A stretch of DNA of 64,000 nucleotides from the IMG/VR virus record IMGVR_UViG_3300008108_007099, positions 27,492 to 91,491 of that record; one strand, 5' to 3'. This stretch comes from a virus. Of this stretch, positions 4,191 through 63,738 are shown piece after piece. Position 1 is the first letter of the stretch, and every line of letters starts with the position of its first letter. A program made the position numbers and the translations under genes. The notes beneath the pieces are model-generated. The model was not told the origin of the DNA and made no database searches. It worked only from the letters and a program-made list of their open reading frames with translations.

Positions 4191-4244
4191 TAACAATACT
4201 GAACTGATATATGAAGGTAACCAGATAGGAATATAGGGAAAACT

Positions 4245-7200: not shown

Positions 7201-8540
7201 TGGGAAGCGGATCGGTAAATAGCAACGCAATTGCTTCAGGACAGGTAGGGCCTTTTGCGTTGGCTAGTGGCGTAGTTGCCGGGTTAATTGGAAGTGGTTC
7301 AGTACAAAGCGGAGACCTTGGTCTTGGTGCTGTCAATAATGAAAATATTTCAAGTGGAACTGTTGCTAATGACAAATTGACAAATAGCACAGTCACAATT
7401 GCCGGTTCAAGTACTGCTCTAGGTGGCACTTGGGCAGCCCAAAGTCTAACAGCAGCCAGTGGCTTATCAGCCGTTACTTATTATCCCTCTGGAGCAGCTG
7501 TCATAGGAATTGCATCAGGTGGCGTATCATCTGGAATGCTTGCTAATGGATCAGTAGTTAGTGGCTCTATAGGTTCTGGTCAAATTGGACAGTTCCACTT
7601 AGCTAGCGGTGCCGCTAATTTGCTTCTCACTAGTGGAATAGTAGTGAGCGGCATGGTTGGAAATGCTGCTGTTACTAGTGGTAGCATTGCCAGTGGCTCT
7701 ATCGGACAAATGCACCTCAGCCAGCTTTTGATTCCCAAAATGCAAGCTCCCGGCAGACTTTCACTCTATAGTGGTGCTCCTGTTGTAAGCGGCGGATACA
7801 TAAGCGGCGCAAACAAATTATACTACAATCCTTACAACGGAAGTACTATATCTCTGTTCGATGGCGTTTCATGGTTAGAATATGAAATTAATCAGCCAGT
7901 CATGCTAGATTTGAATACTGGCTTGCAATCCGGAACCATGTATGACATTTTCATGTTTGGAAATGCCGGAATATCTGGTTCACCATCTTTAGCAGCGGTC
8001 AACTGGACAAGTGGCGGAAACAGAGCGCCAATAGTATATCAAAATGGAATACCTTTAAGCCAATTTACAGGCGGAAGATATTTAGGAACTATTAGAACAA
8101 CAACAAGTTCTACGTCTGAAGATAGTCCATACAGAAGATTTGTATGGAACTATGATAACAGAATTACAAATACTTTATATTACACTGACAGCACTCAGCA
8201 CACTTACAACAGTCCTACACCTAGAGTGTGGAACCTGAATTCCGGTTCACGACTTGAATTTATACAGGGCGTAGCTGGCATAGGTGCGTCTACCTCATGT
8301 TTTGTAGCCAGCTACGTGACTCCCGGTGCAACTAGTATTTGCAGCTTTGAGAGTGACGGAGTCTTCAGCGGAACTAACTACAATGTTTTCAATACATTTA
8401 CTGGTTTGTTCTGGTCACAAAGCATGCTAATGGTAGGAAATTGCAATGAAGGATATAATTACCTCCAATTGATGGAATCATGCCAGAGTGGAACAGTAAC
8501 GAATGTGTCTATGACTTTAACAGGGACAATAGAGGTTTAA
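4245..8540 (+). CDS. Repeat tail fiber protein, 1431 aa
   Basis: The second giant fiber protein. Residues 1-160 are decapeptide repeats (GSVVSGNIASGAVG type). Roughly residues 165-320 form a non-repeat domain with VVYISGG, DGDVLFLSP, LVLIGYV and NGYEIEELHDV, a domain seen in many tail fibers, often before the distal shaft. Residues ~330-1150 return to the ~45-residue modules shared with the neighbouring fibers. The last ~280 residues (from ~7720) are aromatic-rich and non-repetitive, probably the fiber tip. The start follows AGGGAAAACT. It is co-directional with both neighbouring fiber genes. Its function is inferred as host recognition; the receptor is unknown. Confidence 0.85.
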   Translation: MSHELKAITGLFVPSGSLIQGTLASGTVTSGSIGAGAVVNGNIASGQVGTFQIASGAITGNLIASGAVASVDLADNSVVSGKIASGSVSWFTLGSGVVNSGNLGVNSVVSGNIASGAVGLFGLASGVVVSGIIGNNAVNSGNISSGAVGLYQLGVASGTVEGKQLTLDADTGMLTWQSPQTTVARVKNGTAAIISGLAVVYISGGAGANPFVAPAQANADLTSLATFGVAAANIGANAEGTVVTQGILTNVNTSAFNDGDVLFLSPTVAGAVTNVKPQAPDHLVLIGYVTNAANNGTIEVAIQNGYEIEELHDVKILSGSLQSGQILQYSSGVWWNQNFVAGSTNLGSGSVTSGAIASGQVGPSALASGVIAGLIVSGSVQSGDLGTGAVNNINISSGTISNDKLVNNSITIDGSSTALGGSYSSQALTTSSGLLAGTYYPSGSITIGIASGGIVAQMMGSGSITANAIASGQVGPNALASGAIAGLIASGAIGSGDLGIGAVNNENITSGTVANDKLANSTVTIAGSSTALGGSWAAESLTAASGLSAVTYYPSGAAVIGIASGGVIAQMLANGSVTSGAIASGQVGPNALASGVIAGLIVSGSVQSGDLGLGAVNNENIASGTIANDKLANNSITIDGALTALGGTRSSLALTTSSGLLAGTYYPSGALTIGIASGGITSQLLADGAVNTNDIASGAVGTNQIASGAVTGTNIAATTVANTNLVNSTVTIAGSSTALGASWAAAALTTSSGLLAGTYYPSGALTIGIASGGIVAQMMGSGSVTSNAIASGQVGTFALASGLITGLIVSGSVQSGDLGLGAVNNENIASGTVANDKLTNSTVTIAGSSTALGGSWAAAALTTASGLLAGTYYPSGALTIGIASGGITSQMLADASVTTNDIASGAVGTNQIASGAVTGTNIAATTVANTNLVNSAITIAGSSTSLGGTWAAAALTTSSGLLAGTYYPSGSLTIGIASGGIVAQMMGSGSVNSNAIASGQVGPFALASGVVAGLIGSGSVQSGDLGLGAVNNENISSGTVANDKLTNSTVTIAGSSTALGGTWAAQSLTAASGLSAVTYYPSGAAVIGIASGGVSSGMLANGSVVSGSIGSGQIGQFHLASGAANLLLTSGIVVSGMVGNAAVTSGSIASGSIGQMHLSQLLIPKMQAPGRLSLYSGAPVVSGGYISGANKLYYNPYNGSTISLFDGVSWLEYEINQPVMLDLNTGLQSGTMYDIFMFGNAGISGSPSLAAVNWTSGGNRAPIVYQNGIPLSQFTGGRYLGTIRTTTSSTSEDSPYRRFVWNYDNRITNTLYYTDSTQHTYNSPTPRVWNLNSGSRLEFIQGVAGIGASTSCFVASYVTPGATSICSFESDGVFSGTNYNVFNTFTGLFWSQSMLMVGNCNEGYNYLQLMESCQSGTVTNVSMTLTGTIEV

Positions 8541-8543
8541 AAA

Positions 8544-11500
8544 ATGGCTGTATATACACTACAACAGTTCAACGATGCGGTCGCTGCGGTTTGCCCAATT
8601 ACGGGTGTAACAGTAAGTGGCAATGGCGTGTTGGGATATTTCCCAGCCGCTGGAGCTACATCAGGACAGCTTTCTGCTGCTAATGGCGTTGTTGCTACTT
8701 ACAGCGGACAAGTAACAAGCGGAACACCTCAAGGACCAGTTGCTTCTGGCAGCTTCAATGCGGCCATTTTGTTCAGCGGCACAGTCGTATCTCCAAACAT
8801 GGGAAGCGGCTCAATCTTATCAAATTCAATTGGTTCTGGTGCTGTTACTTCTCCAAAATTAGACGTTGGTGCTGTAGGCGCAAACGCCATCGCATCTGGT
8901 GCAATTACTAGCGGTAAATTAGCAGATAACGCCGTTTTCGGCAACATGGTTGCCTCTGGTGCAATTACAGCAAATAAACTTGGCATTGCATCAGTAATGA
9001 ATTTAAATTTGAGCAGTGGTTCAATTACTAATGACAAGCTGGTTAATAGCACTGTCACTATTGCTGGTTCATCTACAGCATTGGGTGGTTCTTGGGCTGC
9101 ACAAAGCTTGACAGCTGCCAGCGGATTGTCATCGGTAACTTATTATCCTTCCGGCACAGCCATATTTGGAATTGCATCTGGCGGCATCGTTGCTCAAATG
9201 ATGGGCAGTGGTTCAGTAACTACAAATGCTATAGCTAGCGGATCTATCACGGCAAATCTTTTGGCAAGCGGAGCTGTAACCGACATTGTTGGAAGTGGTT
9301 CTGTGACAAGTGGCGATGTCGGCATCGGCGCAATTAACAACTTGAATATTGCTTCAGGCACAATAAGCAACGATAAATTAGTAAACAGCGCGGTTACAAT
9401 TAACGGAGCTTCCACAGCACTTGGAGGTTCTTACAATAATTCTACACTTACTTTAGGCGCGGGATTAGCCGGTGGTTCCTACAACGGTTCTGGTGCTGTA
9501 ACAGCAAGTGTTGCTTCGGGCGGAATTACTAGCCAGATGTTGGCAGATTCTGCAGTTGCATCTGGTGATGTCGCTATTGGAGCAATAAATAACCAAAACA
9601 TAGCTTCTGGCACAGTTGCAAATGACAAATTAACAAATAATTCAGTAACAATTGCAGGAAGTTCTACAGCATTAGGTGGAAGCTGGGCAGCACAAAGCCT
9701 AGTTCATGCTAGCGGTCTTTCCGCTGTAACTTATTATCCCTCTGGCTCGGCTGTAGTAGGTATTGCTTCTGGCGGTATCGTTGCTCAAATGATGGGTAGT
9801 GGATCTGTAACTGCCAATGCTATTGCTAGCGGTTCAGTTACTGCCGACGCCTTGGCTAGCGGTGCTATTTCGGCGATAGTTGGAAGTGGCGCAATCACTA
9901 GCGGAGACTTAGGACTTGGCGCAGTAAATAATTTAAATGTTGCATCAGGAACTCTGTCAAACGACAAGCTTGTAAATAGCAGCGTTACAATCGCTGGATC
10001 TTCTACAGCTTTAGGTGGGTCTTGGGCTGCTTCCGCTCTAACAACTGCATCTGGATTGCTTGCCGGAACTTATTATCCATCAGGTTCACTGACAATTGGA
10101 ATTGCTTCCGGAGGCATTACTAGCGAGCTTCTCGCTGATGGCTCAGTAAATACAAACGATATTGCTTCCGGTGCAGTCGGAACAAATCAAATAGCATCCG
10201 GTGCTATTACTGGCACATCCATATCATCTGGAGCTATTACAGGTGCAAATATTGCTTCTGGCACTATTACAGGAAGTAAGCTAGCTGCCGCAACGGTACA
10301 AAACGCTAATCTCGCAAATTCATCTATAAACATAGCTGCTCTAAATGTGCCACTAGGCGGGTCTTGGACTCCACAAGCCTTAACCACCGCTAGCGGTTTG
10401 CTGGCTGGAACATTTTATGTAAGTGGTGCGCTAACCATTGGTATAGCTTCTGGCGGAATTACAAGTCAGCTAATAGCCGATGGGGCTGTTAATACAAATG
10501 ACATTGCTTCTGGAGCAGTTGGAACTAACCAAATTGCATCAGGTGCTGTCACCGGAACAAACATAGCCGCAACAACTGTTGCTAATGCAAACCTCGTCAA
10601 CAGCGCTGTAACTATCGCTGGTTCCTCAACGAGCTTGGGCGGTTCTTGGGCAGCTCAATCCTTGGTACATGCTAGCGGTCTTTCTGCTGTAACCTATTAC
10701 CCATCCGGTTCTGCTGTAGTTGGCATTGCTTCCGGTGGCATAGTTGCCCAAATGATGGGCAGCGGGTCAGTCACTGCCAACGCAATCGCAAGCGGTTCGG
10801 TTACTGCCGATGCTCTTGCTAGTGGCGCAATATCCGCCATCGTTGGCAGCGGTGCAATTACTAGTGGCGACTTAGGAATTGGCGCTGTCAACAATCTGAA
10901 TATTGCTTCAGGCACCGTAGCCAATGACAAACTTGCAAATAGTACAGTAACCATTGCAGGTTCCAGCACCTCCCTAGGTGGTAGCTGGGCTGCAGCAGCA
11001 CTTACAACAGCTAGCGGATTGGCCGCAGGAACATATTACCCGTCAGGCGCTTTGACAATAGGCATTGCTACTAACGGAGTAGTCACAGCTATGATTGCTT
11101 CTGGTGCAGTGGGGACTAATCAAATTGCTTCAGGTGCTGTCACCGGAACAAATATAGCAGCAACAACTGTTGCCAATGCAAACCTCGTTAACAGCGCTGT
11201 AACTATCGCTGGTTCCTCAACGAGCTTGGGCGGTTCTTGGGCAGCTGCAGCACTTACAACATCTAGCGGATTGCTTGCTGGCACATATTATCCATCAGGC
11301 GCACTGACTATAGGATTAGCTTCCGGCGGAATTACAAGCCAATTGATTGCTGACGGTGCTGTTGGAACAAACGAGCTTGCCACAAGTGCAGTGACTAATG
11401 ACAAAATTACAAGTGGTACTGTTGCTAATGACAAACTTGCTAATAGCAGCGTAACCATAGCAGGCTCCTCTACTGCTCTAGGCGGTAGCTGGGCAGCCCA

Positions 11501-14500
11501 AAGTTTGACGGCAGCAAGCGGTCTTTCATCAGTTACTTACTATCCTTCTGGATCGGCTGTAATTGGAATAGCTTCTGGCGGAATCGTTGCACAGATGATG
11601 GGTAGCGGTTCTGTCACCACAAATGCAATTGCTAGCGGTTCTGTCACCACAAATGCATTAGCAAGCGGAGCAATTTCAGCAATCGTTGGAAGCGGAGCAA
11701 TTACTAGCGGCGATTTAGGAATCGCAACTGTGAATAACTTAAACATAGTAAGTGGAACCATAAGCAACGATAAACTTGTAAATAGCTCAATCACTATCAA
11801 TGGTGCATCAACAGCACTAGGTGGAAGTTATGCTAACGCTGCCTTGACACTGGGCACTGGTCTCACAGGTGGTTCATATAATGGTTCAGGTGCAGTCACT
11901 GCAGCTATCGCTTCGGGCGGTATTACAAACGAAATGATTGCAGACAATGCAATCACTACAAATGACATAGCTTCTGGTCAAGTAACTGGAGCCAAGATTG
12001 CTGCAACCACAGTGGCAAATGCTAATTTGGTCAATAGCGCAGTCACAATTGCAGGTTCTTCCACTGCACTAGGTGGTAGCTGGGCCGCAGCAGCTTTAAC
12101 TACCGCAAGCGGACTAGCAGCAGGAACTTATTATCCTTCAGGCGCTCTTACCATAGGAATTGCAACAGCTGGCGTAGTAAATGCGATGATTGCTAGTGGA
12201 GCGGTCACAGGCACAAGCATAGCCGCTTCAACTGTAGCAAATGCGAACTTAGTAAATAGTGCTGTAACAATTGCAGGTTCTTCAACATCCTTGGGTGGTT
12301 CTTGGGCTGCTCAAGCACTTACAACTGCCAGTGGTTTATTGGCAGGAACTTACTATCCATCTGGAGCACTCACTATTGGTTTAGCATCCGGTGGAATTAC
12401 AAGTCAATTAATTGCAGATGGGGCCGTTGGAACAAACGAGCTTGCCACAAGTGCAGTAACTAACGACAAAATTACAAGCGGAACTGTTGCTAATGACAAA
12501 CTTGCAAACAGCACAGTCACAATCGCTGGCTCGTCTACTGCCTTAGGTGGAAGCTGGGCTGCACAAAGTCTAACTGCCGCAAGCGGTTTATCTGCTGTAA
12601 CATATTATCCTTCCGGAGCGGCTGTTATAGGCATCGCTTCTGGTGGAATTATAGCACAAATGATGGGTAGTGGTTCTGTAACTGCTAATGCAATCGCTAG
12701 CGGTTCGGTTACTGCAAATGCACTAGCTAGCGGAGCAATATCAGCCATAGTTGGTAGTGGTGCAATTACCAGTGGAGATTTGGGAATTGGTGCAATTAAT
12801 AATCTAAACATATCCAGCGGAACAATTAGCAACGATAAGCTTGCAAATAGCTCTATTACAATTAACGGCGCTTCAACAGCGCTTGGTGGCAGCTATGCAA
12901 ATGCCGCTCTAACACTTGGAACTGGCTTAACTGGTGGTTCATACAATGGATCAGGTGCCGTAACTGCAGCTATAGCTTCCGGTGGCATAACAGGAGAAAT
13001 GATTGCTGACAACGCAATCACAACAAATGATATTGCGTCGGGACAGGTTACAGGAGCCAAGATTGCCGCAAGCACTGTGGCAAATGCAAATCTTGCAAAC
13101 AGCACAATTACAATCGCTGGATCTTCTACCGCCTTAGGCGCAAGCTGGGCAGCAGCAGCCCTAACAACTTCTAGCGGCTTGACTGCTGGTACTTACTATC
13201 CTTCAGGCGCTCTTACCATAGGGATTGCATCTGGCGGCATCGTTGCCCAAATGATGGGAAGTGGATCAGTTCTATCGGGTGCAATTGGCTCAGGGCAAAT
13301 TGGGCCAAATCATTTATCTTCCGGAATTAGCGTTACCACTGCCACAAAAATAAGTATAGAGGGAACAAACGCCAGCGGTCTATATCCTGTAGTATTTACA
13401 AGTGGCATCGCTAGTAGCAACCAAGCCTATTCATGCTCTGGACTATTTTACAATCCGGCACTCAGAAGCCTTGATATAGTTTGTTATTTGAGCGGCGGTA
13501 CAACCGGTGGCGTTTCAATATTCCCCGGCAACAATGGTACAGCAACGATTGTGGGTCAAAATGCAGCCAGAAACGGTGCCAGTACTGGTGCATTCAGCAC
13601 TATTATTGGCAGGGATGCACTTGCAAGCGGATCATCGGAGGCCAACAGCGTTATTATAGGATATAGGGCAGCATGGGGATCACAAGGTACCGGCGATAAC
13701 GTTATAATCGGCAAAGAGGCCGCAGCAAACGCTGTGGGAACTAGTTTAAGCGTTCTTATAGGTGATTCTGTTGCAAGTAGAGGATTTGGGAATGGTACTT
13801 TTGGTAACGTTGCTATCGGTGCCGCAGCTGGTACGACTGCTGATGGCGTATTAATGTATGAAAGTGTGCATGTTGGAAGGCAAGCCGGCTCAGCTGGCCC
13901 TGCATTAGCCAGCGGCACAAGTGGTGGTAGTAATATTTACTTAGGCGCATATACCATGCGTGGTAGCGACGGTGGTCGTTGGAACGAAATAGTAATTGGC
14001 TGCAATATGAGTGGCCTTGGTACTAACACCATCACTATGGGACGAACTGATACTGCTTCCGGTAGAATTTATGGAAATATCAACTTCCCATATGGAATTT
14101 CGTTCCCATCCGGCGGTATCACATCAGGTGGTGTTTTCACAGCTTCCCTAGGATCTGGATTGGTCCGAAGTGGAGCTATAAGCTCTGGTCAGATAGGAAT
14201 AAATCATCTCGCTGCAGGCGCATGGTCTGCCAACCAAGTCTTAGGTCAAGATGGCGCAGGCAATCTAGACTGGATTACACCAACTACAACAGTGAATAGT
14301 GGTGGAATTACTAGCGGCATGCTAGGAATTGCTTCAGTAAACAATATCAACATTGTTTCTGGAACCATAAGCAACGATAAACTTGCCAACAGTGCCGTCA
14401 CAATCGCTGGTTCTTCAACATCCTTGGGTGGTTCTTGGGCCGCACAAGCTCTGATACATGCCAGTGGTCTATCTGCCGTCACTTATTATCCTTCTGGACA

Positions 14501-15422
14501 GGCCGTTGTTGGCATAGCATCTGGCGGAATCGTAGGAGAAATGATTGCCGACAACGCAATCACAACAAATGATATTGCATCGGGACAAGTGACAGGCGCT
14601 AAAATTGCCGCTACCACTGTAGCAAATGCAAATCTCGTAAACAGTGCTGTTACAATAGCCGGTTCTTCTACGGCACTTGGTGCAAGCTGGGCCGCAGCAG
14701 CCCTAACAACAGCCAGTGGTCTTCTAGCCGGCACATACTATCCATCAGGTGCTCTGACCATCGGCATAGCCTCTGGCGGAATTACGAGCGAACTAATTGC
14801 AGATAATGCGGTTGGAACTAATGAAATTAGTAACGGATCAGTTACTAATGCCAAATTGCAAAATAGCGCAGTCACGATTGCTGGCTCATCTACTTCTCTC
14901 GGCGGTAGCTGGGCGGCTCAAGCTCTTACAACAGCAAGCGGACTAGCAGCAGGAACATACTATCCATCAGGCGCTTTGACGATAGGTATTGCTACAGCCG
15001 GTGTTGTAACTGCCATGATTGCTTCTGGCGCAGTTGGTAGCAACCAAATAGCTTCTGGCGCTGTCGGCGAACTACAGATGTCCAACACAGTTGCCAACAA
15101 GACAATTATTGGCGATATTCAGACAATAAGTGCCCAAACAGGCGCTTACACGTTAGCATCTGGTGACGCCGGTAAACTAATTACAGTTAATGCAGCTGGC
15201 GCAACCATAGTCACAATACCAACAAACGCTACTGTACCTTTTGCGGTTGGATCACACATCGACTTCATTCAGCTTGGTGCTGGACAGGTCACAATTAGCG
15301 GCAATACTGGTGTAACCATAAATTACACTCCCGGCAACAAGCTTAGAACCCAATACGCTGGTGCTTCTGTAATCAAGATTGCCACAGATACTTGGTGTTT
15401 AGTTGGCGATATTTCAACATAA
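8544..15422 (+). CDS. Giant repeat fiber with YadA-head-like segment, 2292 aa
   Basis: The largest gene in the window, starting only 3 nt after the previous stop, with GAGG nine bases upstream. Most of it is the shared ~45-residue module (TIAGSSTALGGSW, TYYPSGALTIGIASGG, MMGSGSVT, ASGAISAIVGSGAITSGD) repeated many times. Around residues 1650-1830 the pattern changes to short turns ending in IIGRDA, IIGYRA, IIGKEA, VLIGDS and VAIGAA, spaced as in the left-handed beta-roll of YadA/Hia-type trimeric adhesin heads. The final ~100 residues (GDAGKLITVNAAGATIVTIP to the end) resemble a C-terminal cap domain of phage fibers. It is probably a trimeric adhesin or long fiber; its size suggests one of the longest filaments on the virion. 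Confidence 0.85.
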   Translation: MAVYTLQQFNDAVAAVCPITGVTVSGNGVLGYFPAAGATSGQLSAANGVVATYSGQVTSGTPQGPVASGSFNAAILFSGTVVSPNMGSGSILSNSIGSGAVTSPKLDVGAVGANAIASGAITSGKLADNAVFGNMVASGAITANKLGIASVMNLNLSSGSITNDKLVNSTVTIAGSSTALGGSWAAQSLTAASGLSSVTYYPSGTAIFGIASGGIVAQMMGSGSVTTNAIASGSITANLLASGAVTDIVGSGSVTSGDVGIGAINNLNIASGTISNDKLVNSAVTINGASTALGGSYNNSTLTLGAGLAGGSYNGSGAVTASVASGGITSQMLADSAVASGDVAIGAINNQNIASGTVANDKLTNNSVTIAGSSTALGGSWAAQSLVHASGLSAVTYYPSGSAVVGIASGGIVAQMMGSGSVTANAIASGSVTADALASGAISAIVGSGAITSGDLGLGAVNNLNVASGTLSNDKLVNSSVTIAGSSTALGGSWAASALTTASGLLAGTYYPSGSLTIGIASGGITSELLADGSVNTNDIASGAVGTNQIASGAITGTSISSGAITGANIASGTITGSKLAAATVQNANLANSSINIAALNVPLGGSWTPQALTTASGLLAGTFYVSGALTIGIASGGITSQLIADGAVNTNDIASGAVGTNQIASGAVTGTNIAATTVANANLVNSAVTIAGSSTSLGGSWAAQSLVHASGLSAVTYYPSGSAVVGIASGGIVAQMMGSGSVTANAIASGSVTADALASGAISAIVGSGAITSGDLGIGAVNNLNIASGTVANDKLANSTVTIAGSSTSLGGSWAAAALTTASGLAAGTYYPSGALTIGIATNGVVTAMIASGAVGTNQIASGAVTGTNIAATTVANANLVNSAVTIAGSSTSLGGSWAAAALTTSSGLLAGTYYPSGALTIGLASGGITSQLIADGAVGTNELATSAVTNDKITSGTVANDKLANSSVTIAGSSTALGGSWAAQSLTAASGLSSVTYYPSGSAVIGIASGGIVAQMMGSGSVTTNAIASGSVTTNALASGAISAIVGSGAITSGDLGIATVNNLNIVSGTISNDKLVNSSITINGASTALGGSYANAALTLGTGLTGGSYNGSGAVTAAIASGGITNEMIADNAITTNDIASGQVTGAKIAATTVANANLVNSAVTIAGSSTALGGSWAAAALTTASGLAAGTYYPSGALTIGIATAGVVNAMIASGAVTGTSIAASTVANANLVNSAVTIAGSSTSLGGSWAAQALTTASGLLAGTYYPSGALTIGLASGGITSQLIADGAVGTNELATSAVTNDKITSGTVANDKLANSTVTIAGSSTALGGSWAAQSLTAASGLSAVTYYPSGAAVIGIASGGIIAQMMGSGSVTANAIASGSVTANALASGAISAIVGSGAITSGDLGIGAINNLNISSGTISNDKLANSSITINGASTALGGSYANAALTLGTGLTGGSYNGSGAVTAAIASGGITGEMIADNAITTNDIASGQVTGAKIAASTVANANLANSTITIAGSSTALGASWAAAALTTSSGLTAGTYYPSGALTIGIASGGIVAQMMGSGSVLSGAIGSGQIGPNHLSSGISVTTATKISIEGTNASGLYPVVFTSGIASSNQAYSCSGLFYNPALRSLDIVCYLSGGTTGGVSIFPGNNGTATIVGQNAARNGASTGAFSTIIGRDALASGSSEANSVIIGYRAAWGSQGTGDNVIIGKEAAANAVGTSLSVLIGDSVASRGFGNGTFGNVAIGAAAGTTADGVLMYESVHVGRQAGSAGPALASGTSGGSNIYLGAYTMRGSDGGRWNEIVIGCNMSGLGTNTITMGRTDTASGRIYGNINFPYGISFPSGGITSGGVFTASLGSGLVRSGAISSGQIGINHLAAGAWSANQVLGQDGAGNLDWITPTTTVNSGGITSGMLGIASVNNINIVSGTISNDKLANSAVTIAGSSTSLGGSWAAQALIHASGLSAVTYYPSGQAVVGIASGGIVGEMIADNAITTNDIASGQVTGAKIAATTVANANLVNSAVTIAGSSTALGASWAAAALTTASGLLAGTYYPSGALTIGIASGGITSELIADNAVGTNEISNGSVTNAKLQNSAVTIAGSSTSLGGSWAAQALTTASGLAAGTYYPSGALTIGIATAGVVTAMIASGAVGSNQIASGAVGELQMSNTVANKTIIGDIQTISAQTGAYTLASGDAGKLITVNAAGATIVTIPTNATVPFAVGSHIDFIQLGAGQVTISGNTGVTINYTPGNKLRTQYAGASVIKIATDTWCLVGDIST

Positions 15423-15467: not shown

Positions 15468-17702
15468 ATGCGTAGAGTAATGATATATTCGAGGCCTCAA
15501 TTCACCTCTACCCCTACGCCCACAGCTTCTCCTACGCCATCGCCTTCTCCATCTGCAACACCTGAACCAACGCCAGTTGCCTTAAATGCATTTTTGTACG
15601 GTTGGGGCGGCAACGGATACGGCCAACTTGGAAATAACACTTCTACTGATACCAGATTTGCTGTGCAAACTGTGATGTCATCCAATTTCTGGAATACAGT
15701 TTCTGATACTATTGACGGCAGCACATATGCAATTAAGACCGATCTAAGCATGTGGACATTTGGCTACAACGCATACGGTCAATTGGGCGACAATACAACT
15801 ACAGTCAGAAGTTCTCCAGTACAAGTAACGGGAAGCAACACCAACTGGGTAAACGTTAACGGCGGATTAAATCACGTTATTGGCATTAAGACGGACGGCA
15901 CTTTATGGACTTGGGGTCAGCTGTGGGAAATAGCAAATGCTGGCCAAACCCATACTTTAGGTCTTGCAGCAAACAATACTCTATGGGCATGGGGCGGAAA
16001 CGCCTACGGGGAACTTGGTACATCATCTACTAACAGTGCTTTAACGCCTGTACAGATTGGTACATCTACGGCTTGGAAGTATATAACAGCTGGATTCCAG
16101 AATTCTTATGCTGTTAAAACAGATGGTTCACTGTGGGGCTGGGGCAGAAACAATCTTGGCCAGCTTGGTCAAAACAATGTAACCAACCTTAGCAGCATGG
16201 TTCAGATTGGGACTGGCAACTGGGTAAGCATAGCTGCCGGCGGTGGTTTTATGCTAGGCGTTAAAAATGATGGCACTATGTGGTCAGTTGGCGATAATAC
16301 TTTTGGACAGTTGGGAATTGGATCTAGTACAACTGCATTTAGTAGCATAACACAAGTTACCGTTGGATCTACATCTTGGTCTAGCGTGAGCGCAGGTTAT
16401 CAATTCGGCGTTGCGTTGCAGAAAAATGGCACGATATGGACATTTGGAAGAAACCTCTATAGTGCTTTGGGCAATATTGCAAGTTTTGGTTCTACCAGCA
16501 TAAACACACCAGAACAAGTAACTACTACAGGCCTTTCATGGGTTTCAGTGGTTGCAGGCGGATATCATGTAAGTGCCCTAACATTAAGCACTCCTATACC
16601 AACAAGCAGTCCTGCTCCAACACAGGTTCCTACCGCTACAGCTACACCAGCTCCAACATCGAGTCCGGCTCCCACTCCATCTGTTACGCCAGTGCCAACA
16701 GCAAGTGCAACTCCTGCTCCATCTGCAAGTGCAACACCAGCACCAACTGCAAGCCGTACACCAACACCAACGGCAAGCCCTGTTCCTACGAATACAGCAA
16801 CACCGGCTCCAACCGCAAGTGTTACACCGAATCCGACACCGTCGCCGACTTCATTGCCTGCTCCAAGTCCAACTATAGATCCTACTGGCACTACCGTAGA
16901 ATTGTGCTTTACAGACGCAGTGACAAGAGTAAATGGCGATATTGGAGCAATTACCTTCTCAGGATTTAATCCTGCATATGGCACCCTATCTGTTGCCTCA
17001 TATAATTCCGGCAGCGGTACCTCATGTCTGATTTATGGTTTGAATCGACCTGCATACAGTGATGAAACAGCTATTACTATATCTTATGATTCATCTAACT
17101 GCTATCTTGCAAGGCTAAGTCCTTATCAATGTTTGCCGACCTACAACCTTGTGCCTGTAAATAATACCTCTACCAAGGCACCACCCACACCTACACCAAC
17201 GCCGTCAAGAAGTCCTTCTCCGACACCATCGAGAAGTCCTTCGCCAACTCCTTCGCCTTCGCCATCTGCAAGTGCGGCAGCTACGGCCACACCAACGCCT
17301 TCACCATCTGCTACAGGTGGCAGCCCAACTCCCACACCTACAGGATTCGCAGGCTGCTACTCGCAAGATGCTACCGGACTAATGGATGTAACAGCAACTA
17401 CATATGGATTTGACTTTAGCAACCAGTTTACCAAGGGAAGTTCTACATTCTTATTTACGGTACTTGCTGATTGCAATGATATAACATTTACAGTGTTTGT
17501 CGATAATCAGAGTGGCACTGGTGATGTTAAGATAGTTGCGCCAAACGGTGCTGAAACTTTAGTTGGAACTGGCACTACTGGATGCCAGCACTTTACAGGC
17601 GTCCAACAGGGAGAAACTGTAGCCGTAGGTAAAGGCACAGCCGGTGCTACATACGGCGCTGGTACAGTCACAGGCTACATAGTAACTGGCGGCGGTTGTT
17701 AA
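15468..17702 (+). CDS. RCC1-type beta-propeller protein with Thr/Ser/Pro linkers
   Basis: A 744-residue adhesin-like protein. After a short N-terminal TPTPTASP-type linker, residues ~40-370 contain seven RCC1-type blades recognisable by W-G-x-N-x-x-G-Q-L-G ([40 protein letters not shown] and others). The third blade is shortened: WTWGQLW runs directly into [14 protein letters not shown] second linker (~375-470) of TP/AP/SATPAP repeats leads to a Cys-containing beta domain, a third [10 protein letters not shown] linker, and a C-terminal domain ending in GGGC. The co-directional position after three fiber genes suggests a virion surface protein. The linkers resemble O-glycosylation substrates, and a glycosyltransferase operon lies about 1 kb away. 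The first ATG was chosen; ATG 15480 is an alternative. Confidence 0.75.
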
Positions 17703-57655: not shown

Positions 57656-58471
57656 ATGCAGCATAAATTATTATTTAAAGAGTGGATTGGCAAGAGTCCT
57701 GAAGTTATGTACGGATTTAGGCCAGACGTAAGCAAAATTGAGATTCCATTCTATGAATTGGAGCCAATAGAAGCCTTTAGTGTTGAGAAATGTTTAGAAG
57801 CTTTGGCCGCGACTGGTAAAATAGACGGAAAAGAAGCAAATGACATTTGGAAAACTCAGCTTTCATACGGACATGGATTGGGAAAAGTTAGTGTTACAAG
57901 TTCTCCTTATGGATCCTATAAATTTGTAGTAAGAAGATATGTAACTGATGCTAAAGGTAATTTGGTGCCAATATGCAGGCTTGTAATACCACTAACAAAT
58001 GATTACAACCATCGCGGTCCTAATGACCCCGGCGAAGAAATATTAGCCGTCAAAATGTACGATAAAATTAAACAAATAATGTCAGAACCTTATCCTGCTC
58101 CTAATTGTGACTTTCAAAAAAGATTCGCGCACTTTGTTTACAACTTTAGTAAAGCCGTTAAATTAAAACATCCAAACATCATGGTTTACCAAGGCACTGT
58201 TAAGTTAGACGACAATAATTACATCATCAGTTTTACCTTTAAAGGATATGGTAACGGCGTGCCTAACTCACAAAAAGCAGAAGAGTTTTTGATTAATTGG
58301 CAGTATCTGCCTGAGACTGGATTATTGAGATGCTGGGGTTATGACGTAGTTTCTCCTGTAAAACAACGAGAATGGCAACCTGCTGTAAGTGAATGGGATG
58401 AGTATTTTTGTCCAACTCAGCCAGAAAATCAGATTATGAGTTGTATCATGGAAGCTTTTATGACCTATTGA
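57656..58471 (+). CDS. Unknown 271-aa protein with capsid-targeting-like tag
   Basis: The ATG at 57656 (with TTAAGG 10-11 nt upstream) is preferred over an adjacent TTG. The N-terminus MQHKLLFKEWIGKSPE has the F-K-E-W-I tag. The remainder is a globular, partly beta-rich protein with YKFVVRRYVTDAKGNLVPIC, then VYQGTVKLDDNNYIISFTFK and a C-terminal WDEYFCPTQPENQIMSCIME. No family is recognised. A head-internal role is inferred from the tag only. It converges with the next gene, overlapping by 14 bases. Confidence 0.65.
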   Translation: MQHKLLFKEWIGKSPEVMYGFRPDVSKIEIPFYELEPIEAFSVEKCLEALAATGKIDGKEANDIWKTQLSYGHGLGKVSVTSSPYGSYKFVVRRYVTDAKGNLVPICRLVIPLTNDYNHRGPNDPGEEILAVKMYDKIKQIMSEPYPAPNCDFQKRFAHFVYNFSKAVKLKHPNIMVYQGTVKLDDNNYIISFTFKGYGNGVPNSQKAEEFLINWQYLPETGLLRCWGYDVVSPVKQREWQPAVSEWDEYFCPTQPENQIMSCIMEAFMTY

Positions 58472-59147
58472 TTTCAAAATCAAATAAGTTATTATATATT
58501 TCTTTAGCATAATCAACGTTAAATTTATCAAAACTTTTAGAATCAGTTCGCTGAGTAATATCGTTTTTCAATTCTTCTGGCAGTTTTTTAATCCACTCTG
58601 ACAAATAAATGTAAATTGGTTTAATCTTTCGTAAAATTGCAGAAGTTTTAATCTTTGAAGCATTTTCTGCGTATTTTTCAAATGTTAATTCGTCGCCGCA
58701 AATTTTCTTAATTTCTTTCAAGCTCTCAAGCAAATCATACTCCATATCAGCATCTTGCATTGAATAAACTTGTTTTGTTAATTTATTCGCGTTTGCAACT
58801 AACTTATTCCAATAAAACCAGCGCCTTTCAGCTGGATCTCCTGTTAAAATAACAGGCTCGATTAATACAGGCGTGTCTTTTTTATTTATTCTTTTGAATA
58901 TCATCAATTGAGCTTTAATAAATAATTCGTATTCACCAATAGTTTCAAAATCTCTTTCTTTAATTAACTTAAGCATAGTCCTGAAAAGAACACTTTTCTT
59001 CAGGGTTTTAATTTGGGGGGTTTTAGAATGCATGTAATCAGGGAAAATCTTCCGCGATAATTCGACCCATAAACAACATACGCGGTAAGCAGTATCATCT
59101 TTGCCACTGAAACCATGCAACATGCTCATTTCTGGATCGTATTTCAT
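58458..59147 (-). CDS. Unknown 229-aa protein
   Basis: A helical, lysine- and glutamate-rich protein with no recognised family. The ATG at 59147 is chosen; the preceding codon is GTG. Islands are YRVCCLWVELSRKIFPDYMH near residue 22, LFRTMLKLIKERDFETIGEY, then YIYLSEWIKKLPEEL near the C-terminus. The layout is vaguely reminiscent of replication accessory or helicase-loader proteins, but the evidence is not enough to assign it. It lies just before the structured RNA region and the DNA polymerase, on the opposite strand. Confidence 0.65.
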   Translation of the reverse strand: MKYDPEMSMLHGFSGKDDTAYRVCCLWVELSRKIFPDYMHSKTPQIKTLKKSVLFRTMLKLIKERDFETIGEYELFIKAQLMIFKRINKKDTPVLIEPVILTGDPAERRWFYWNKLVANANKLTKQVYSMQDADMEYDLLESLKEIKKICGDELTFEKYAENASKIKTSAILRKIKPIYIYLSEWIKKLPEELKNDITQRTDSKSFDKFNVDYAKEIYNNLFDFEINRS

Positions 59148-59173
59148 CACAAAATTCTACATCTAAATCAAAT

Positions 59174-59200
59174 TTGCCACAACTGCAAAACAACTAAAAT
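59174..59200 (+). promoter_or_regulatory. Predicted sigma-70-like promoter for the structured RNA
   Basis: TTGCCA (59174-59179) and TAAAAT (59195-59200) are separated by 15 bp. Transcription would start near 59207, just before the first stem of the structured region. The spacer is shorter than ideal, so this is a moderate prediction. Confidence 0.35.
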
Positions 59201-59206
59201 TGGTCA

Positions 59207-59619
59207 TGGATTAGTAAGGTGAATTAACGACCTGAAAGTCCATCGAGTCTCTTTCATAAGACAATGTTAATTCATTGTTGAAATTTAGAGATGGAAAAAC
59301 CAGTTGGGTCGATTACTCATTACCTTCAAAAGAGATTTGAGTAAAAGATAACCCCTGTGGTATGTAACGAGTACCATGGACCAACTACGGCAAAGAGGTG
59401 AGCCATACCTCCTACCCCAGCTGATGCGGGTTACCTGTCAGAGAAATCTGAATAGGTTGAAAAAGGGGTGAAATCCAACAAGAGTGAGTACTAACAGACT
59501 CAGGGTGGTTGGATTGGACAGTATGGTTAGTAGTTGCAAAACAGTTAAGTCAGTATCTCTTTAAGGTTACCAACTCCTTAGTTTTAAAGAAGATAAGTAA
59601 ACTTCTTACTTTTCTTTTT
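59207..59619 (+). ncRNA. Large structured noncoding RNA, class not recognised
   Basis: The stretch has no plausible reading frame but many perfect stems. GAATTAAC (59221-59228) pairs with GTTAATTC (59266-59273), AGTTGG (59302-59307) with CCAACT (59381-59386), TTACTCA (59313-59319) with TGAGTAA (59338-59344), TGGTA (59358-59362) with TACCA (59372-59376) and GAGGT (59395-59399) with ACCTC (59407-59411). TCAGA-GAAA-TCTGA (59438-59451) is a hairpin with a GNRA tetraloop. AATCCAAC (59472-59479) pairs with GTTGGATT (59508-59515), enclosing TGAGT/ACTCA. TAAGG (59215-59219) and CCTTA (59576-59580) could close the fold. The GNRA loop fixes the plus strand. It is not a tRNA, tmRNA or RNase P RNA by eye; GOLLD/ROOL-type ornate phage RNAs are the nearest idea. 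Confidence 0.65.
59587..59619 (+). terminator. Probable terminator ending the structured RNA
   Basis: AAGAAG (59587-59592) pairs with CTTCTT (59602-59607), followed by a T-rich run to 59619. The stem is weak (6 bp, two G-C pairs), so efficiency is uncertain. Confidence 0.5.
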
Positions 59620-59735
59620 AACTATGAGTTACAGGAACCCGTGGAGGTCGGTTTTGAATAGCGATTAAAATTCTTTAATTATTTGATATTTGTAACTTTT
59701 ATGGTATTATCCTAGAATGTAAATTAGGAGAAGGC

Positions 59736-61040
59736 ATGCAGTTACAAGATCTTACGGCCAAGCTATTTGATTTCTTTAGCAAGACCAGAATGGTTTTTGT
59801 AACTTGGGATCCTGTTTCTTTTGACTCTACGACCCTAGCTAAGCTTCAAGTTCGAATTAGGTTCGATAACGGCAAAGACAATTCGATCGCGGTTCCTCTC
59901 AATTCAAGCAATTGTTTGATAATCACCAATATCCTTGAAAAACTTAATTCCACCCGTAAAACAGTTTTCGTTGGGCATGACTTTAAGATTCTGTTTACAT
60001 TTTTCAGACGTTTAAATAACAAACTTCTCGACTTGGCAAACGTATTTGATTTGGGTTGGTACGAATCCTATTACTCAAAACCTTCATCGGCAGGTAACCA
60101 AGTCCTGCAAGTTAAGCATTTGAAGGAATGGTTTGCCAACCAAGATTCTATGCGCGTATATCAAAACATATTTTCAAAATTAATTGTTCAAACCCTTCCT
60201 GCAATTGAAGGTAACGGTTTGATTAACACAGACCTTGGTCTTTTAGTGTTTCCAAATTTTGTTGTAGAAGGTCAGGCAAACGGAAGGTTGTCTTGTATTT
60301 GCGAGTACAAGCGATGCTACAACCCGCACAGTTTGTCTGATGACGAAAAAGCCGATTTGATTCTCGGCAAAGACAACGAACTCTTTATTTGGTTCGATTA
60401 CAACAACATGGAAGTTGCTGTTCTTGCTGAATTAGCAAACGACGACAACCTCAAAGAACTTATTAGTAAGAACCCTAAACAGGTTTATGAGAAAATATTT
60501 GAGTGCGCGACAGGAACAGTTGTTGAAGATGCGAGGAAACTTGCAAAAACAATGTTTCTGCCATGCATTTATGGTCAAGGTGCTGCTGGTTTGGCAAAAA
60601 GCCTAGACATCTCCTTGGACCAAGCAGCTATCTACCTGCACAATTTGAGAAATGCTTTTTCTAAGAGCTTCACTTTTGTTGAAAACGCCCACAAAGAAGC
60701 TGCAGAAAATTCATGTGCAACAGATCGCTTCGGAAGGGTTCGTAGGTTCCAGTCTGATGAGGCGTTTAAGGCCCGAAATTTCGCAATACAGGCACCATCG
60801 GCTCTTTTATGCCTCGAGTCCTTGGTTAACCTCCAAAACGCCGCAGGAAAGCTTTTTAAAGTAATGTTCACGGTTCATGATGGTTATTGTATTGCTGGTG
60901 AAAAAAGTTACTTGGAAGAGGCGTACAGGTTGGCCAAATCTGTACTAGAAAAAACCTCAGAGTTTCTGCCGGTAAAACTGAGCGTGTCAGCAAAACTAGG
61001 AAGAAATTTGGCAAAAATGACATCCATAGGAAAAAGGTAA
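59736..61040 (+). CDS. polA: Family A DNA polymerase, short form
   Basis: A 434-residue family A polymerase. Motif A is FIWFDYNNMEVAVL with Asp221 and Glu226; motif B is RKLAKTMFLPCIYGQG with Arg267, Lys271 and Tyr279; motif C is VHDGYC with His381-Asp382. The position equal to E. coli Phe762 (Lys + 4) is Leu275, as in one class of marine virus polymerases. The usual Glu after H-D in motif C is Gly383. The N-terminal ~150 residues resemble a degenerate 3'-5' exonuclease domain (VGHDFKILFTFF) without a clear set of catalytic acids, and the total is far shorter than T7 or E. coli enzymes. Ribosome binding site TTAGGAG. T4 uses a family B enzyme instead. Confidence 0.85.
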   Translation: MQLQDLTAKLFDFFSKTRMVFVTWDPVSFDSTTLAKLQVRIRFDNGKDNSIAVPLNSSNCLIITNILEKLNSTRKTVFVGHDFKILFTFFRRLNNKLLDLANVFDLGWYESYYSKPSSAGNQVLQVKHLKEWFANQDSMRVYQNIFSKLIVQTLPAIEGNGLINTDLGLLVFPNFVVEGQANGRLSCICEYKRCYNPHSLSDDEKADLILGKDNELFIWFDYNNMEVAVLAELANDDNLKELISKNPKQVYEKIFECATGTVVEDARKLAKTMFLPCIYGQGAAGLAKSLDISLDQAAIYLHNLRNAFSKSFTFVENAHKEAAENSCATDRFGRVRRFQSDEAFKARNFAIQAPSALLCLESLVNLQNAAGKLFKVMFTVHDGYCIAGEKSYLEEAYRLAKSVLEKTSEFLPVKLSVSAKLGRNLAKMTSIGKR

Positions 61041-61044
61041 ATGT

Positions 61045-61605
61045 ATGCTATCAGTTTTTAAAAACTTTCCAGTAAGTGATAAAGAATACCAGATACTAGA
61101 CAAAAAATTCGGCCAGTTGTGCTATTATGCTTCTTGGCAACTAATCAGAAAGAATAGCGCCAATAATCACCAGTTTGATTTGGATGATGTTTCTCAGGAA
61201 TTAATGGTTGCAGTGCTGAGGGCCGCCAGTTATTACAAAAGACAGGTGTTTATAGACACCTCCCTTTCAGCACTCAAAAATGCTAGCATGGATAAAACAA
61301 GCAGACTTATTGTTAAAGAATTGTCGAATCTATGGGACAATCGCACTCGACATGGTGCCAGCCGTCAGAAGTTTGGCGATCACCAAGAACAAATCATGAA
61401 AGAACTTTGCCGCAAATTTTTGCCACCAAACGAAATTCCGTCCATGACTCGTGAACTAATAATGGAAAATAAATTTTTAACTTATTGCAAACAAATCCTT
61501 TGGAATGCTACAAAACATTTAGGAAGAAAGATTAGTCGCGAAAAACCCCTTCGCGCTGGTCAAGTTAGTTTGTCTGATCACGAATACCTTTCAACCGTGG
61601 AGTGA
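61045..61605 (+). CDS. Putative sigma-70 region 2-like protein, 186 aa
   Basis: Residues ~46-66 read FDLDDVSQELMVAVLRAASYY, the D-D-x-x-Q-E-x-x-x-x-L pattern of sigma region 2, within a small helical protein. The rest (RLIVKELSNLWDNRTRHGAS, FLTYCKQILWNATKHLGRKI) lacks an obvious region 4, so an alternative transcription factor or a DNA-binding recombination protein is also possible. The gene is 4 bases after the polymerase and appears co-expressed; AAGG lies about 8 nt before the ATG. Confidence 0.45.
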   Translation: MLSVFKNFPVSDKEYQILDKKFGQLCYYASWQLIRKNSANNHQFDLDDVSQELMVAVLRAASYYKRQVFIDTSLSALKNASMDKTSRLIVKELSNLWDNRTRHGASRQKFGDHQEQIMKELCRKFLPPNEIPSMTRELIMENKFLTYCKQILWNATKHLGRKISREKPLRAGQVSLSDHEYLSTVE

Positions 61606-61609
61606 AAAC

Positions 61610-62074
61610 ATGAACAGAGGCCCGTACGTAGAGATTAGATTGACACCACCAATGATTGAATTGGCTCACACTTTGGCCAAAGAACTAGGTGTTTTAAGAA
61701 ATTCAATCGAGGAAGGTGCTGGTAACATTACTGGATTCTGTGCCGAATTAGCATGCAAAAAGCACTTCGGCATACCTCTAGATGAAATTCAGAACACTTA
61801 TCACTATGACATTTTGGTTAACGGTATTACGTATGATGTGAAAGCTAAAAAAAGAAAAGATGCTCCAAGATACTGGCACGAAGCTAGCATCTCTGATTAC
61901 AACACAAGTCAAAAGTGTAATTTGGGTTTTTATCCGAAACAACAATATTTGGACGAAGCAAGATTCCTTAAAAAAGGACAAATCGATGGCTCAAATAATT
62001 TTGAAGTTAAAGGGGATTGCTGGAATTTGGTCTACGAAAAATTAAATCCAATCAGCCAAATTAAAAGAAATTAG
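61610..62074 (+). CDS. PD-(D/E)XK-like protein, 154 aa
   Basis: A 154-residue protein with GFCAELACKKHFGIPLDEIQ, then YDILVNGITYDVKAKKRKD, matching the E...D...x-V-K catalytic layout of the PD-(D/E)XK nuclease fold. A closely related protein is encoded 1.1 kb downstream (63214-63738), also ending in the segment DCWNLVYE / DCFNLEYQ, so the two are paralogues. Ribosome binding site GGAG. The gene is followed at once by two tRNA genes on the other strand, a common setting for mobile or host-takeover genes. Confidence 0.6.
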   Translation: MNRGPYVEIRLTPPMIELAHTLAKELGVLRNSIEEGAGNITGFCAELACKKHFGIPLDEIQNTYHYDILVNGITYDVKAKKRKDAPRYWHEASISDYNTSQKCNLGFYPKQQYLDEARFLKKGQIDGSNNFEVKGDCWNLVYEKLNPISQIKRN

Positions 62075-62148
62075 TGCAAAGTCGTGGAGTTGAACCAACG
62101 TGTGCCGGCTTATAAGGCCGGTCCTCAAAGCCGTCGAGGACACTTTGC
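62075..62148 (-). tRNA. tRNA-Ile(UAU), slightly irregular
   Basis: On the minus strand the acceptor GCAAAGT pairs with ACTTTGC. The D stem CCTC pairs with GAGG, the anticodon stem CCGGC with GCCGG, and the loop CTTATAA gives anticodon TAT, which reads the isoleucine codon AUA. The T arm needs a bulged base (CGTTGG with CCACG), and position 8 is not T in this alignment. CCA is not encoded. It directly follows the stop of the preceding gene and its own folding is good but not perfect. Confidence 0.6.
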
Positions 62149-62152
62149 AGAT

Positions 62153-62227
62153 TGGGCTCTCTGGGACTTGAACCCAGAACCGAACGATTATGAGTCGTTT
62201 GCTCTAGACCAGTTGAGCTAAGAGCCC
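62153..62227 (-). tRNA. tRNA with anticodon CAT (Met or Ile2)
   Basis: On the minus strand a clean 75-nt cloverleaf: acceptor GGGCTCT/AGAGCCC, D arm GCTC...GAGC, anticodon stem AACGA/TCGTT with loop CTCATAA, T arm CTGGG-TTCAAGT-CCCAG. The discriminator is A and CCA is not encoded. CAT could be elongator methionine or, if Cys34 were lysidine-modified, isoleucine AUA; the neighbouring UAU tRNA already reads AUA, so Met is somewhat favoured. Likely co-transcribed with the other tRNA. Confidence 0.9.
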
Positions 62228-63213: not shown

Positions 63214-63738
63214 ATGTTTGAAATGTTTGAACTGCCATTAGACGAAGAGATTTTGCAGTGTGCTAAAATCCGAGCTAAGAATCAAAGGGCTAATAAAAAT
63301 TCGTTCGAGAGAGGAAAAGGAAACTTTGTTGGTTATGTTGGTGAGTATGCCGTTAAGAAGTTTCTTGGTTTGCCTTTTGAGCCTTCAACTAAAGATTATG
63401 ACTTCATACTAGATGGTAAAAGATATGAAGTAAAGACGAAGAAAACAAAGTATGAGGTATTGCCTCATTACGAAGGCAGCGTAGACACGCATAGTGCGAA
63501 GCAGGATTGTGACTATTATCTGTTTTGTCGCGCCATAGTAACCGTACCAGATGCTGGAATAGATCAAGTATTTGCATTCGGATATTTCCCAAAAAAGTCC
63601 TACATGAAAAAAGCCAAATTCAGGAAGAAGGGCGAAAGGGATGAATCTAATGGTTGGACTGTGAAAAAGGACTGTTTCAATCTAGAGTATCAATTGTTGA
63701 AGCCGTTTAGTAAATTAGTGAAGATGGCAACTGTATGA
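63214..63738 (+). CDS. PD-(D/E)XK-like protein, 174 aa
   Basis: Paralogue of the 154-residue protein at 61610: GYVGEYAVKKFLGLPFEPST, then YDFILDGKRYEVKTKKTK supply the E...D...x-V-K layout, and the C-terminal SNGWTVKKDCFNLEYQLLKP matches it as well. A central insertion (YYLFCRAIVTVPDAGIDQVF) is not in the shorter copy. The fold predicts DNA cleavage, but the exact acidic residues cannot be proven by eye. Ribosome binding site AAGGAA; own predicted promoter. One or both copies may come from recent transfer, as they flank the tRNA/frameshift region. Confidence 0.6.
   Translation: MFEMFELPLDEEILQCAKIRAKNQRANKNSFERGKGNFVGYVGEYAVKKFLGLPFEPSTKDYDFILDGKRYEVKTKKTKYEVLPHYEGSVDTHSAKQDCDYYLFCRAIVTVPDAGIDQVFAFGYFPKKSYMKKAKFRKKGERDESNGWTVKKDCFNLEYQLLKPFSKLVKMATV

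Follow-up and report, generated by a model that had tools for sequence, protein, structure and literature searches.

In a group of large phages, most of them uncultured, the region directly upstream of the family A DNA polymerase gene (polA) carries a large structured RNA. One architecture was common to 23 distinct RNAs (22 if L107 and L120, which are 95% alike, are merged), with three mutually crossing long-range pairings, PK1, PLR and PK2. Across the family the folds were conserved through a near-total turnover of the sequence. That a conserved structured RNA exists is close to certain. To judge from the sequence, it is probably transcribed separately, and the overall reading of a conserved, separately made RNA is likely, a grading that leaves any role as a scaffold aside.

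The window, by which we mean the whole stretch of 64,000 nt that was analyzed, comes from a viral record of 91.5 kb. As the initial annotation described, a gene-free stretch lies between divergent genes: positions 59151 to 59735 hold no gene of note, with a minus-strand open reading frame (ORF) on one side and polA on the other. No long protein-coding alignment was found in the region. The features of the locus are as follows.

58458-59150, minus strand: divergent neighbor of 230 aa (ORF list, synteny)
59174-59200, plus strand: weak promoter-like pair TTGCCA-15-TAAAAT, 8/12 matches, missed by the standard scan
59207-59655, plus strand: the RNA, with homologs in the same slot and a fold z score of -4.2; both ends are predicted
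59587-59619, plus strand: A/T-rich hairpin with a T-run, inside the RNA and not a conserved terminator; the conserved tail lies downstream
59683-59710, plus strand: promoter-like pair of polA itself, TTGATA-16-TATTAT, located after the RNA (promoter scan, 10/12 consensus matches)
59736-61040, plus strand: polA, the constant downstream neighbor (PF00476, 2.6e-27; synteny)
61045-61605, plus strand: lineage-specific protein of 186 aa, the bait for relatives (searches, synteny)

A search with polA yielded, at 76% identity, two contigs with the same gene order, in which the intergenic stretch consisted of conserved blocks and variable stems. Comparison of the window with one of them, L001, pointed to hairpin Pa (AGGT/ACCT versus AGGC/GCCT), to stem Pb with two double changes and to stem Pc, and it suggested that the Pa loop might pair with a GTTAA sequence located some 320 nt farther downstream. 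From 5' to 3', the order of elements in the family is Pa, the P0/Pe domain with a small hairpin and Pd, the Pc domain, the downstream PK1 strand, a variable region and the tail. In the window, these elements were mapped as follows.

59217-59233, plus strand: hairpin Pa, AGGT(GAATTAACG)ACCT; AGGT/ACCT, AGGC/GCCT or TGGT/ACCA in relatives
59224-59228 and 59544-59548, plus strand: PK1, TTAAC in the Pa loop and GTTAA (covariation among relatives)
59247-59252 and 59287-59292, plus strand: stem Pb, GTCTCT and AGAGAT (two double compensatory changes compared with L001)
59299-59301 and 59397-59399, plus strand: P0, ACC (ACYT in relatives) and GGT; ACYT/ARGT covaries, and the pairing is helix 1 of the Pe model, with 98% of cells paired
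59303-59307 and 59381-59385, plus strand: Pe, GTTGG and CCAAC (covariation by eye; helix 2 of the Pe model in the other subgroup)
59355-59379, plus strand: hairpin Pd, covarying, with an ACGAG motif in the loop (helix 5 of the Pe model)
59368-59370 and 59648-59650, plus strand: PK2, CGA in the Pd loop and TCG in the tail (swap test)
59402-59408 and 59521-59527, plus strand: Pc, GCCATAC and GTATGGT (swap test)
59425-59432 and 59636-59643, plus strand: PLR, TGCGGGTT within the Pc domain, the best partner of the tail, and AACCCGTG in the tail (swap test and free partner search)
59473-59514, plus strand: hairpin ATCCAAC-AAGAG-TGAGT / ACTCA-GGGTG-GTTGGAT; CCATAC-AAGAA-TGAGT / ACTCA-AGGTG-GTATGG in L001

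The 186-aa neighbor was kept at 47 to 51% even in distant relatives, and an alignment-based search with it gave 73 viral loci. Many of these had an ORF-free gap of several hundred nucleotides directly upstream of polA, with shared motifs. By our own count from the scan for ORF-free gaps, sequence motifs, matches to model R2 and synteny, the RNA was present in 44 loci, a gene-free gap without assignment in 7 and genes in the slot in 13, and 9 loci were truncated or undecided. In all 44 assigned loci the RNA was located just 5' of polA and on the polA strand. A plain MAFFT alignment of five RNAs was misaligned, and neither it nor a twelve-row alignment entered any of the counts in this analysis.

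Model R1, for which the window and L001 supplied the sequences, detected three more RNAs in the same place: L057 (E value, 5e-5), L056 (6e-5) and, weakly, L058 (0.6), whose proposed membership is based on where it lies and how it pairs and not on its score. The Pa loop was changed in all three, and the downstream strand was changed along with it. The R1 matches in two records of 595 kb and 341 kb were weak and resembled coding sequence, and they were rejected. Model R2, built from the Pe domain of seven RNAs, detected RNAs outside its training set, L092/L093 (1e-16) and L109-L116 (1e-13). R2 missed the window's own subgroup as well as L071, L075, L079, L086, L087 and L121; the homology proposed across subgroups is based on a common position and topology and not on a sequence score. 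A pattern scan added six contigs and one RNA (L137). Two further contigs obtained with another RNA pattern were both coding. Among viral contigs, one exact RNA pattern gave just the two close contigs, and another gave 33 stretches, of which those in the two close contigs are the RNA and the others look coding. The search of genome contigs with the 186-aa protein gave no match, and when the RNA was compared with annotated phages by blastn, the sole results were chance matches of 22 and 27 nt.

In a tree of the 186-aa protein, RNA-carrying loci occurred to either side of the midpoint root, and the RNA label required 5 changes, compared with 16.4 when shuffled, a clustering that is inflated by near-copies. 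The tree is in line with an old RNA that may have been lost several times.

The tail, whose sequence resembles GTCGGCAACTCGGT or CCTGCCCCCCGGT, takes part in two of the long-range pairings. Its first half pairs inside the Pc domain (PLR), for example, as GGCGGGT/ACCCGCC, GGCAGGC/GCCTGCC, GATGCTGACTT/GGGTCAGCATC, GATGCCATG/CATGGCATC or GCGGTG/CACCGC. Its second half pairs with the Pd loop (PK2), which reads ACGAG, ACGGG, CTGGG, TAGGG or ACAAG; examples are CGAG/CTCG, CGGG/CCCG, CTGGG/CCCAG, AGGGA/TCCCT and CAAGCA/TGCTTG, and in the window PK2 has only 3 bp. PK1 did not vary between the window and L001. Among other RNAs, TTAAC/GTTAA was replaced by TTGTCG/CGACAA (L056), GTGTC/GACAC (L057), GTGTCT/AGACAC (L058) or CGTACT/AGTACG (L091, L092 and L109). 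Inspection of the L078 subgroup by eye for PK1 revealed nothing beyond an invariant CTC/GAG. Since PLR and PK2 anchor the tail and PK1 anchors the loop of the 5' hairpin, both ends of the RNA are tied into its body. The covariation is compatible with pairings that may form within one molecule or between copies. Ends tied into a core by pseudoknots, together with conserved unpaired stretches such as AAGTCTTTGTAGT, would also suit a new ribozyme class, for example, one that processes its own ends. However, neither a cleavage site nor a splice site is apparent, no gene is interrupted and no Rfam ribozyme matched, so that a ribozyme appears improbable.

Covariation was quantified by swap tests, in which strands scored higher with their own partners than with swapped ones. 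For PLR (18 RNAs), the score was 19.1 with own partners and 11.5 with swapped ones; for PK2 (21 RNAs), 12.3 and 9.8; and for Pc (21 RNAs), 18.3 and 9.35, with 0/20000 permutations as good in each case, the strands being picked by hand (complementarity was part of the choice for PLR and Pc, whereas Pd alone fixed the PK2 loops) and the permutations treating the RNAs as independent of kinship. For PK1, the scores were 13.75 and 10.2, with 7/20000 permutations as good, among the eight RNAs where a candidate had been found. The PLR rows exclude L071, L075 and L076, to which no PLR strand was assigned. The swap tests exclude L062, L064, L068, L077 and L090, where the gap is present and the elements were not assigned, as well as L120 (95% like L107) and near-identical contigs. 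L137 was counted in the free tail search and for promoters and folding and is absent from the PLR, PK2 and Pc tests.

Because the strands had been chosen by hand, the tail was also compared with the entire RNA body in a free search. In 14 of 19 RNAs, the tail matched the homologous site best. In the remaining five, this site ranked second (L058, L107 and L086), third (L056) or fifth (L066). A single shuffled body often reached the score of the tail by chance (0 to 97 of 100), and the weight of this search therefore rests on the recurrence of the same site.

In the Pe domain (10 distinct rows), 91.7% of cells were paired, compared with 31 to 40% when the partners were slid, and 0/500 shuffles were as high, in an alignment that was fitted to the model and hence leans towards it. 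Both sides had changed in 12 of 22 pairs; further pair types did not stand out in number (103/500 shuffles). Helix 2 of the Pe model was paired in just 65.5% of cells. Variants of Pe, read by eye, were GTTGG/CCAAC, GCTGG/CCAGC, GCTGG/CCGGC and GTTGA/TCAAC. The covariation in homologous intergenic regions that the initial annotation had suggested looking for was strong in PLR, PK2, Pc, PK1, the Pe domain and the free tail search.

Folding energies pointed in the same direction. Positions 59151 to 59735 gave a z score of -3.0 against dinucleotide shuffles, 2/100 of which were equally good, and the RNA itself (59207 to 59655) gave -4.2, with 0/60 as good. All of the 21 RNAs folded below their own shuffle mean (z of -2.1 to -8.7). 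In the window, the reverse strand also folded better than dinucleotide shuffles, and equally well. Over the 21 RNAs, the z score averaged -4.6 for the polA strand, compared with -3.6 for the opposite strand. Both this difference and the G-U pairs in the covarying helices point to the polA strand. The moderately unusual z score of -3.0 in the window alone and the equal folding of its reverse strand would allow for chance structure in an AT-rich intergenic region with no RNA function, but this is contradicted by the swap tests, the Pe domain and the free tail search and is scarcely conceivable.

All of the stems first named for this stretch are present as strings in the sequence. An 8-bp stem, AATCCAAC/GTTGGATT (59472-59479/59508-59515), was supported by CCATAC/GTATGG in L001. 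The other 8-bp stem, GAATTAAC/GTTAATTC, is absent from L001; GAATTAACG forms the Pa loop and pairs with 59544-59548 instead. The suggested closing stem TAAGG/CCTTA competes with Pa, whose AGGY/RCCT covaries, and is not a conserved pairing. The hairpin with a GAAA loop (59438-59451) does occur as a string but lies inside an insertion that is missing from L001.

The 5' end of the RNA in the window was placed from a weak -10 sequence (59195-59200) and the 3' end from the last conserved nucleotides of the tail. From Pa to the end of the tail, the length was 327 to 536 nt in 17 RNAs. The promoter initially proposed at 59174-59200 has a 15-nt spacer and 8/12 matches and was missed by the standard scan, but good promoters were present there in relatives. 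L091 and L092 have sites with 12/12 consensus matches at the corresponding positions, and sites with at least 9/12 matches within 90 nt upstream were found in 9 of 17 RNAs, compared with 3.9 expected from mononucleotide shuffles. The T-rich hairpin at 59587-59619 had been read as a terminator, and the standard scan revealed no GC-rich terminator there. The end of the RNA at 59619 proved wrong, because conserved, covarying RNA is located beyond it, at 59636-59650; the RNA reaches to about 59655. If the T-rich hairpin does terminate transcription, most molecules would be without the tail.

A cis-acting leader of polA, that is, a very large 5' untranslated region that controls polA through its structure or through attenuation at the T-rich hairpin, is the alternative that the location of the RNA brings to mind. 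The 44 assigned loci, all on the same strand and just upstream of polA, agree with such a leader, as does the T-run hairpin that precedes the tail in the subgroup of the window. However, a promoter-like site of polA's own follows the RNA, in the window and, with at least 9/12 matches, in 6 of 17 RNA loci. The covarying tail is transcribed after the T-rich hairpin and therefore could not steer a decision on attenuation, and L078, L095 and L096 have, by eye, no such T-run hairpin. A leader of this kind is thus unlikely. For the separately made RNA, we propose that the host RNA polymerase would produce it as a transcript of its own from a sigma-70-type promoter and that the transcript would end near the tail, ahead of the separate polA promoter. 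The RNA would then most likely act in trans as a structural RNA, and early in infection it might serve as a compact ribonucleoprotein scaffold or as an RNA-only assembly like GOLLD or ROOL. This scaffold mechanism is drawn by analogy and is tentative, and the constant place and orientation beside polA suit a role in cis as well.

In relatives that lack the RNA, the slot upstream of polA is occupied by various genes. LR756511, L063 and L074 have an ORF of 387 to 394 aa without a Pfam match. In a protein of this size beside polA (L006:4826-5989, L009:6691-7875 and L074:5499-6662), the polymerase-like motifs NSQPLLL and HDS were seen by eye. Prim-Pol was found in the slot of L094 (2258-3469; 2.5e-23) and L122 (2632-3360; 1.7e-16). 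The slot ORFs L117:5362-6645 and L119:5381-6646 gave weak AEP-TOTE matches below the curated cut-off, and L060 has an RNase H (5446-5985) and another ORF. The slot of L073 contains a Cas12b-like protein of 760 aa (2934-5216; PADLOC, 1.4e-66) and then, at 5497-5870, a repeat that starts with GGTGTGGAACACCTTGAATTGTA and is present in six copies; this phage probably carries a CRISPR array with a type V effector here.

The priming genes in this slot invite a reading in which the RNA acts in replication. ColE1 RNA II, the primer that forms an R-loop at its origin, is cut by RNase H and extended by a family A polymerase; like the present RNA, by description, it is a structured RNA of a few hundred nucleotides linked with a family A polymerase. 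By this analogy, the RNA could form an R-loop or primer at an origin beside polA or have another priming role, and in its favor are the constant linkage to polA and the Prim-Pol, weak AEP-TOTE and RNase H genes that occupy the slot where relatives lack the RNA. In contrast, RNA carriers encode primases elsewhere: among the 12 records that have either the RNA or a gap without assignment, Prim-Pol was present in 4 (G005, G008, G009 and G017) and Toprim_2 in 1 (G008). Toprim_2 was present in 3 and Prim-Pol in 2 of the 7 RNA-less records in this comparison, in which many of the 19 records are fragments. The simple proposal that the RNA stands in place of a primase was not supported, because RNA carriers have primases too. 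A replication RNA of the ColE1 type is therefore doubtful, and it is equally doubtful that the RNA helps to start phage DNA replication by priming or licensing synthesis by the neighboring polymerase. If it did, an RNA-based initiation factor would have been swapped in evolution for protein ones (primase-polymerase, AEP-type or RNase H). The fixed place beside a replicative polymerase, with priming genes there in relatives, is a concrete functional lead.

The RNA is several hundred nucleotides long and noncoding and has covarying pseudoknots, which makes it a large structured phage RNA in the descriptive sense. Members of such classes can form assemblies: GOLLD is an RNA-only nanocage, and ROOL is a homo-oligomer held by kissing loops. 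The Rfam covariance models of GOLLD, ROOL, OLE and RNase P did not match the RNA. No Rfam family reached the gathering score in the window RNA and ten relatives, and in five RNAs none was credible when the E value limit was set at 5 or 10; a search of 59151-59735 at E values up to 5 also gave nothing credible. The reading as a new or divergent large phage RNA, made before any search, was upheld by the covariation, the absence of a coding alignment and the absence of an Rfam match. Group I introns and RNase P were considered by eye and dropped because no model matched; for group I, the stretch also lies between two whole ORFs and interrupts no gene. ARAGORN found two tRNAs and no tmRNA over the window.

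As described in PMC12286853, ROOL resembles the RNA as a large noncoding phage RNA with several pseudoknots, GOLLD as a noncoding RNA of phages that is likewise large and elaborately folded and OLE as a large, ornate bacterial RNA. They differ in that the ROOL described there has 659 nt, compared with 327 to 536 nt here, and the present RNA lies beside polA; OLE is there a bacterial RNA with protein partners. The RNA is also about half the size of GOLLD and in a different place. GOLLD and ROOL are nearest in kind, and membership in either fails on the model test. A strongly diverged form of a known RNA (GOLLD, ROOL, OLE, RNase P, tmRNA or a group I intron) would account for the size, phage origin and pseudoknots that recall GOLLD and ROOL, but with no credible Rfam match it is very improbable. 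No relative of this RNA family is known; the RNA has precedents as a large structured phage RNA. A full-text literature search, with bioRxiv and most subscription journals largely outside its range, found no paper on the RNA, and an earlier description is possible. RNA classes this large and complex seldom come to light, and the handful described from phages, such as GOLLD and ROOL, turned out to form unexpected structures. With more than 20 diverged natural variants, the fold can now be worked out by comparison and probing.

Rfam over the whole window detected two tRNAs and nothing else. The genes, for tRNA-Ile (anticodon TAT) and tRNA-Met, are adjacent on the minus strand at 62074-62227, 2.4 kb from the RNA. 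Nearby, two proteins that resemble each other (154 aa, 61610-62074, and 174 aa, 63214-63738) have, by eye, the nuclease-like motifs YDVKxKK and YEVKTKK. At the start of the window (6-15422), ORFs of 1394, 1431 and 2292 aa are built of SG/IASG-type repeats and are probably fiber-like. They are followed by an ORF of 744 aa (15468-17702) in which RCC1-like WGxNxxGQLG repeats and a Pro/Thr/Ser-rich stretch were seen by eye.
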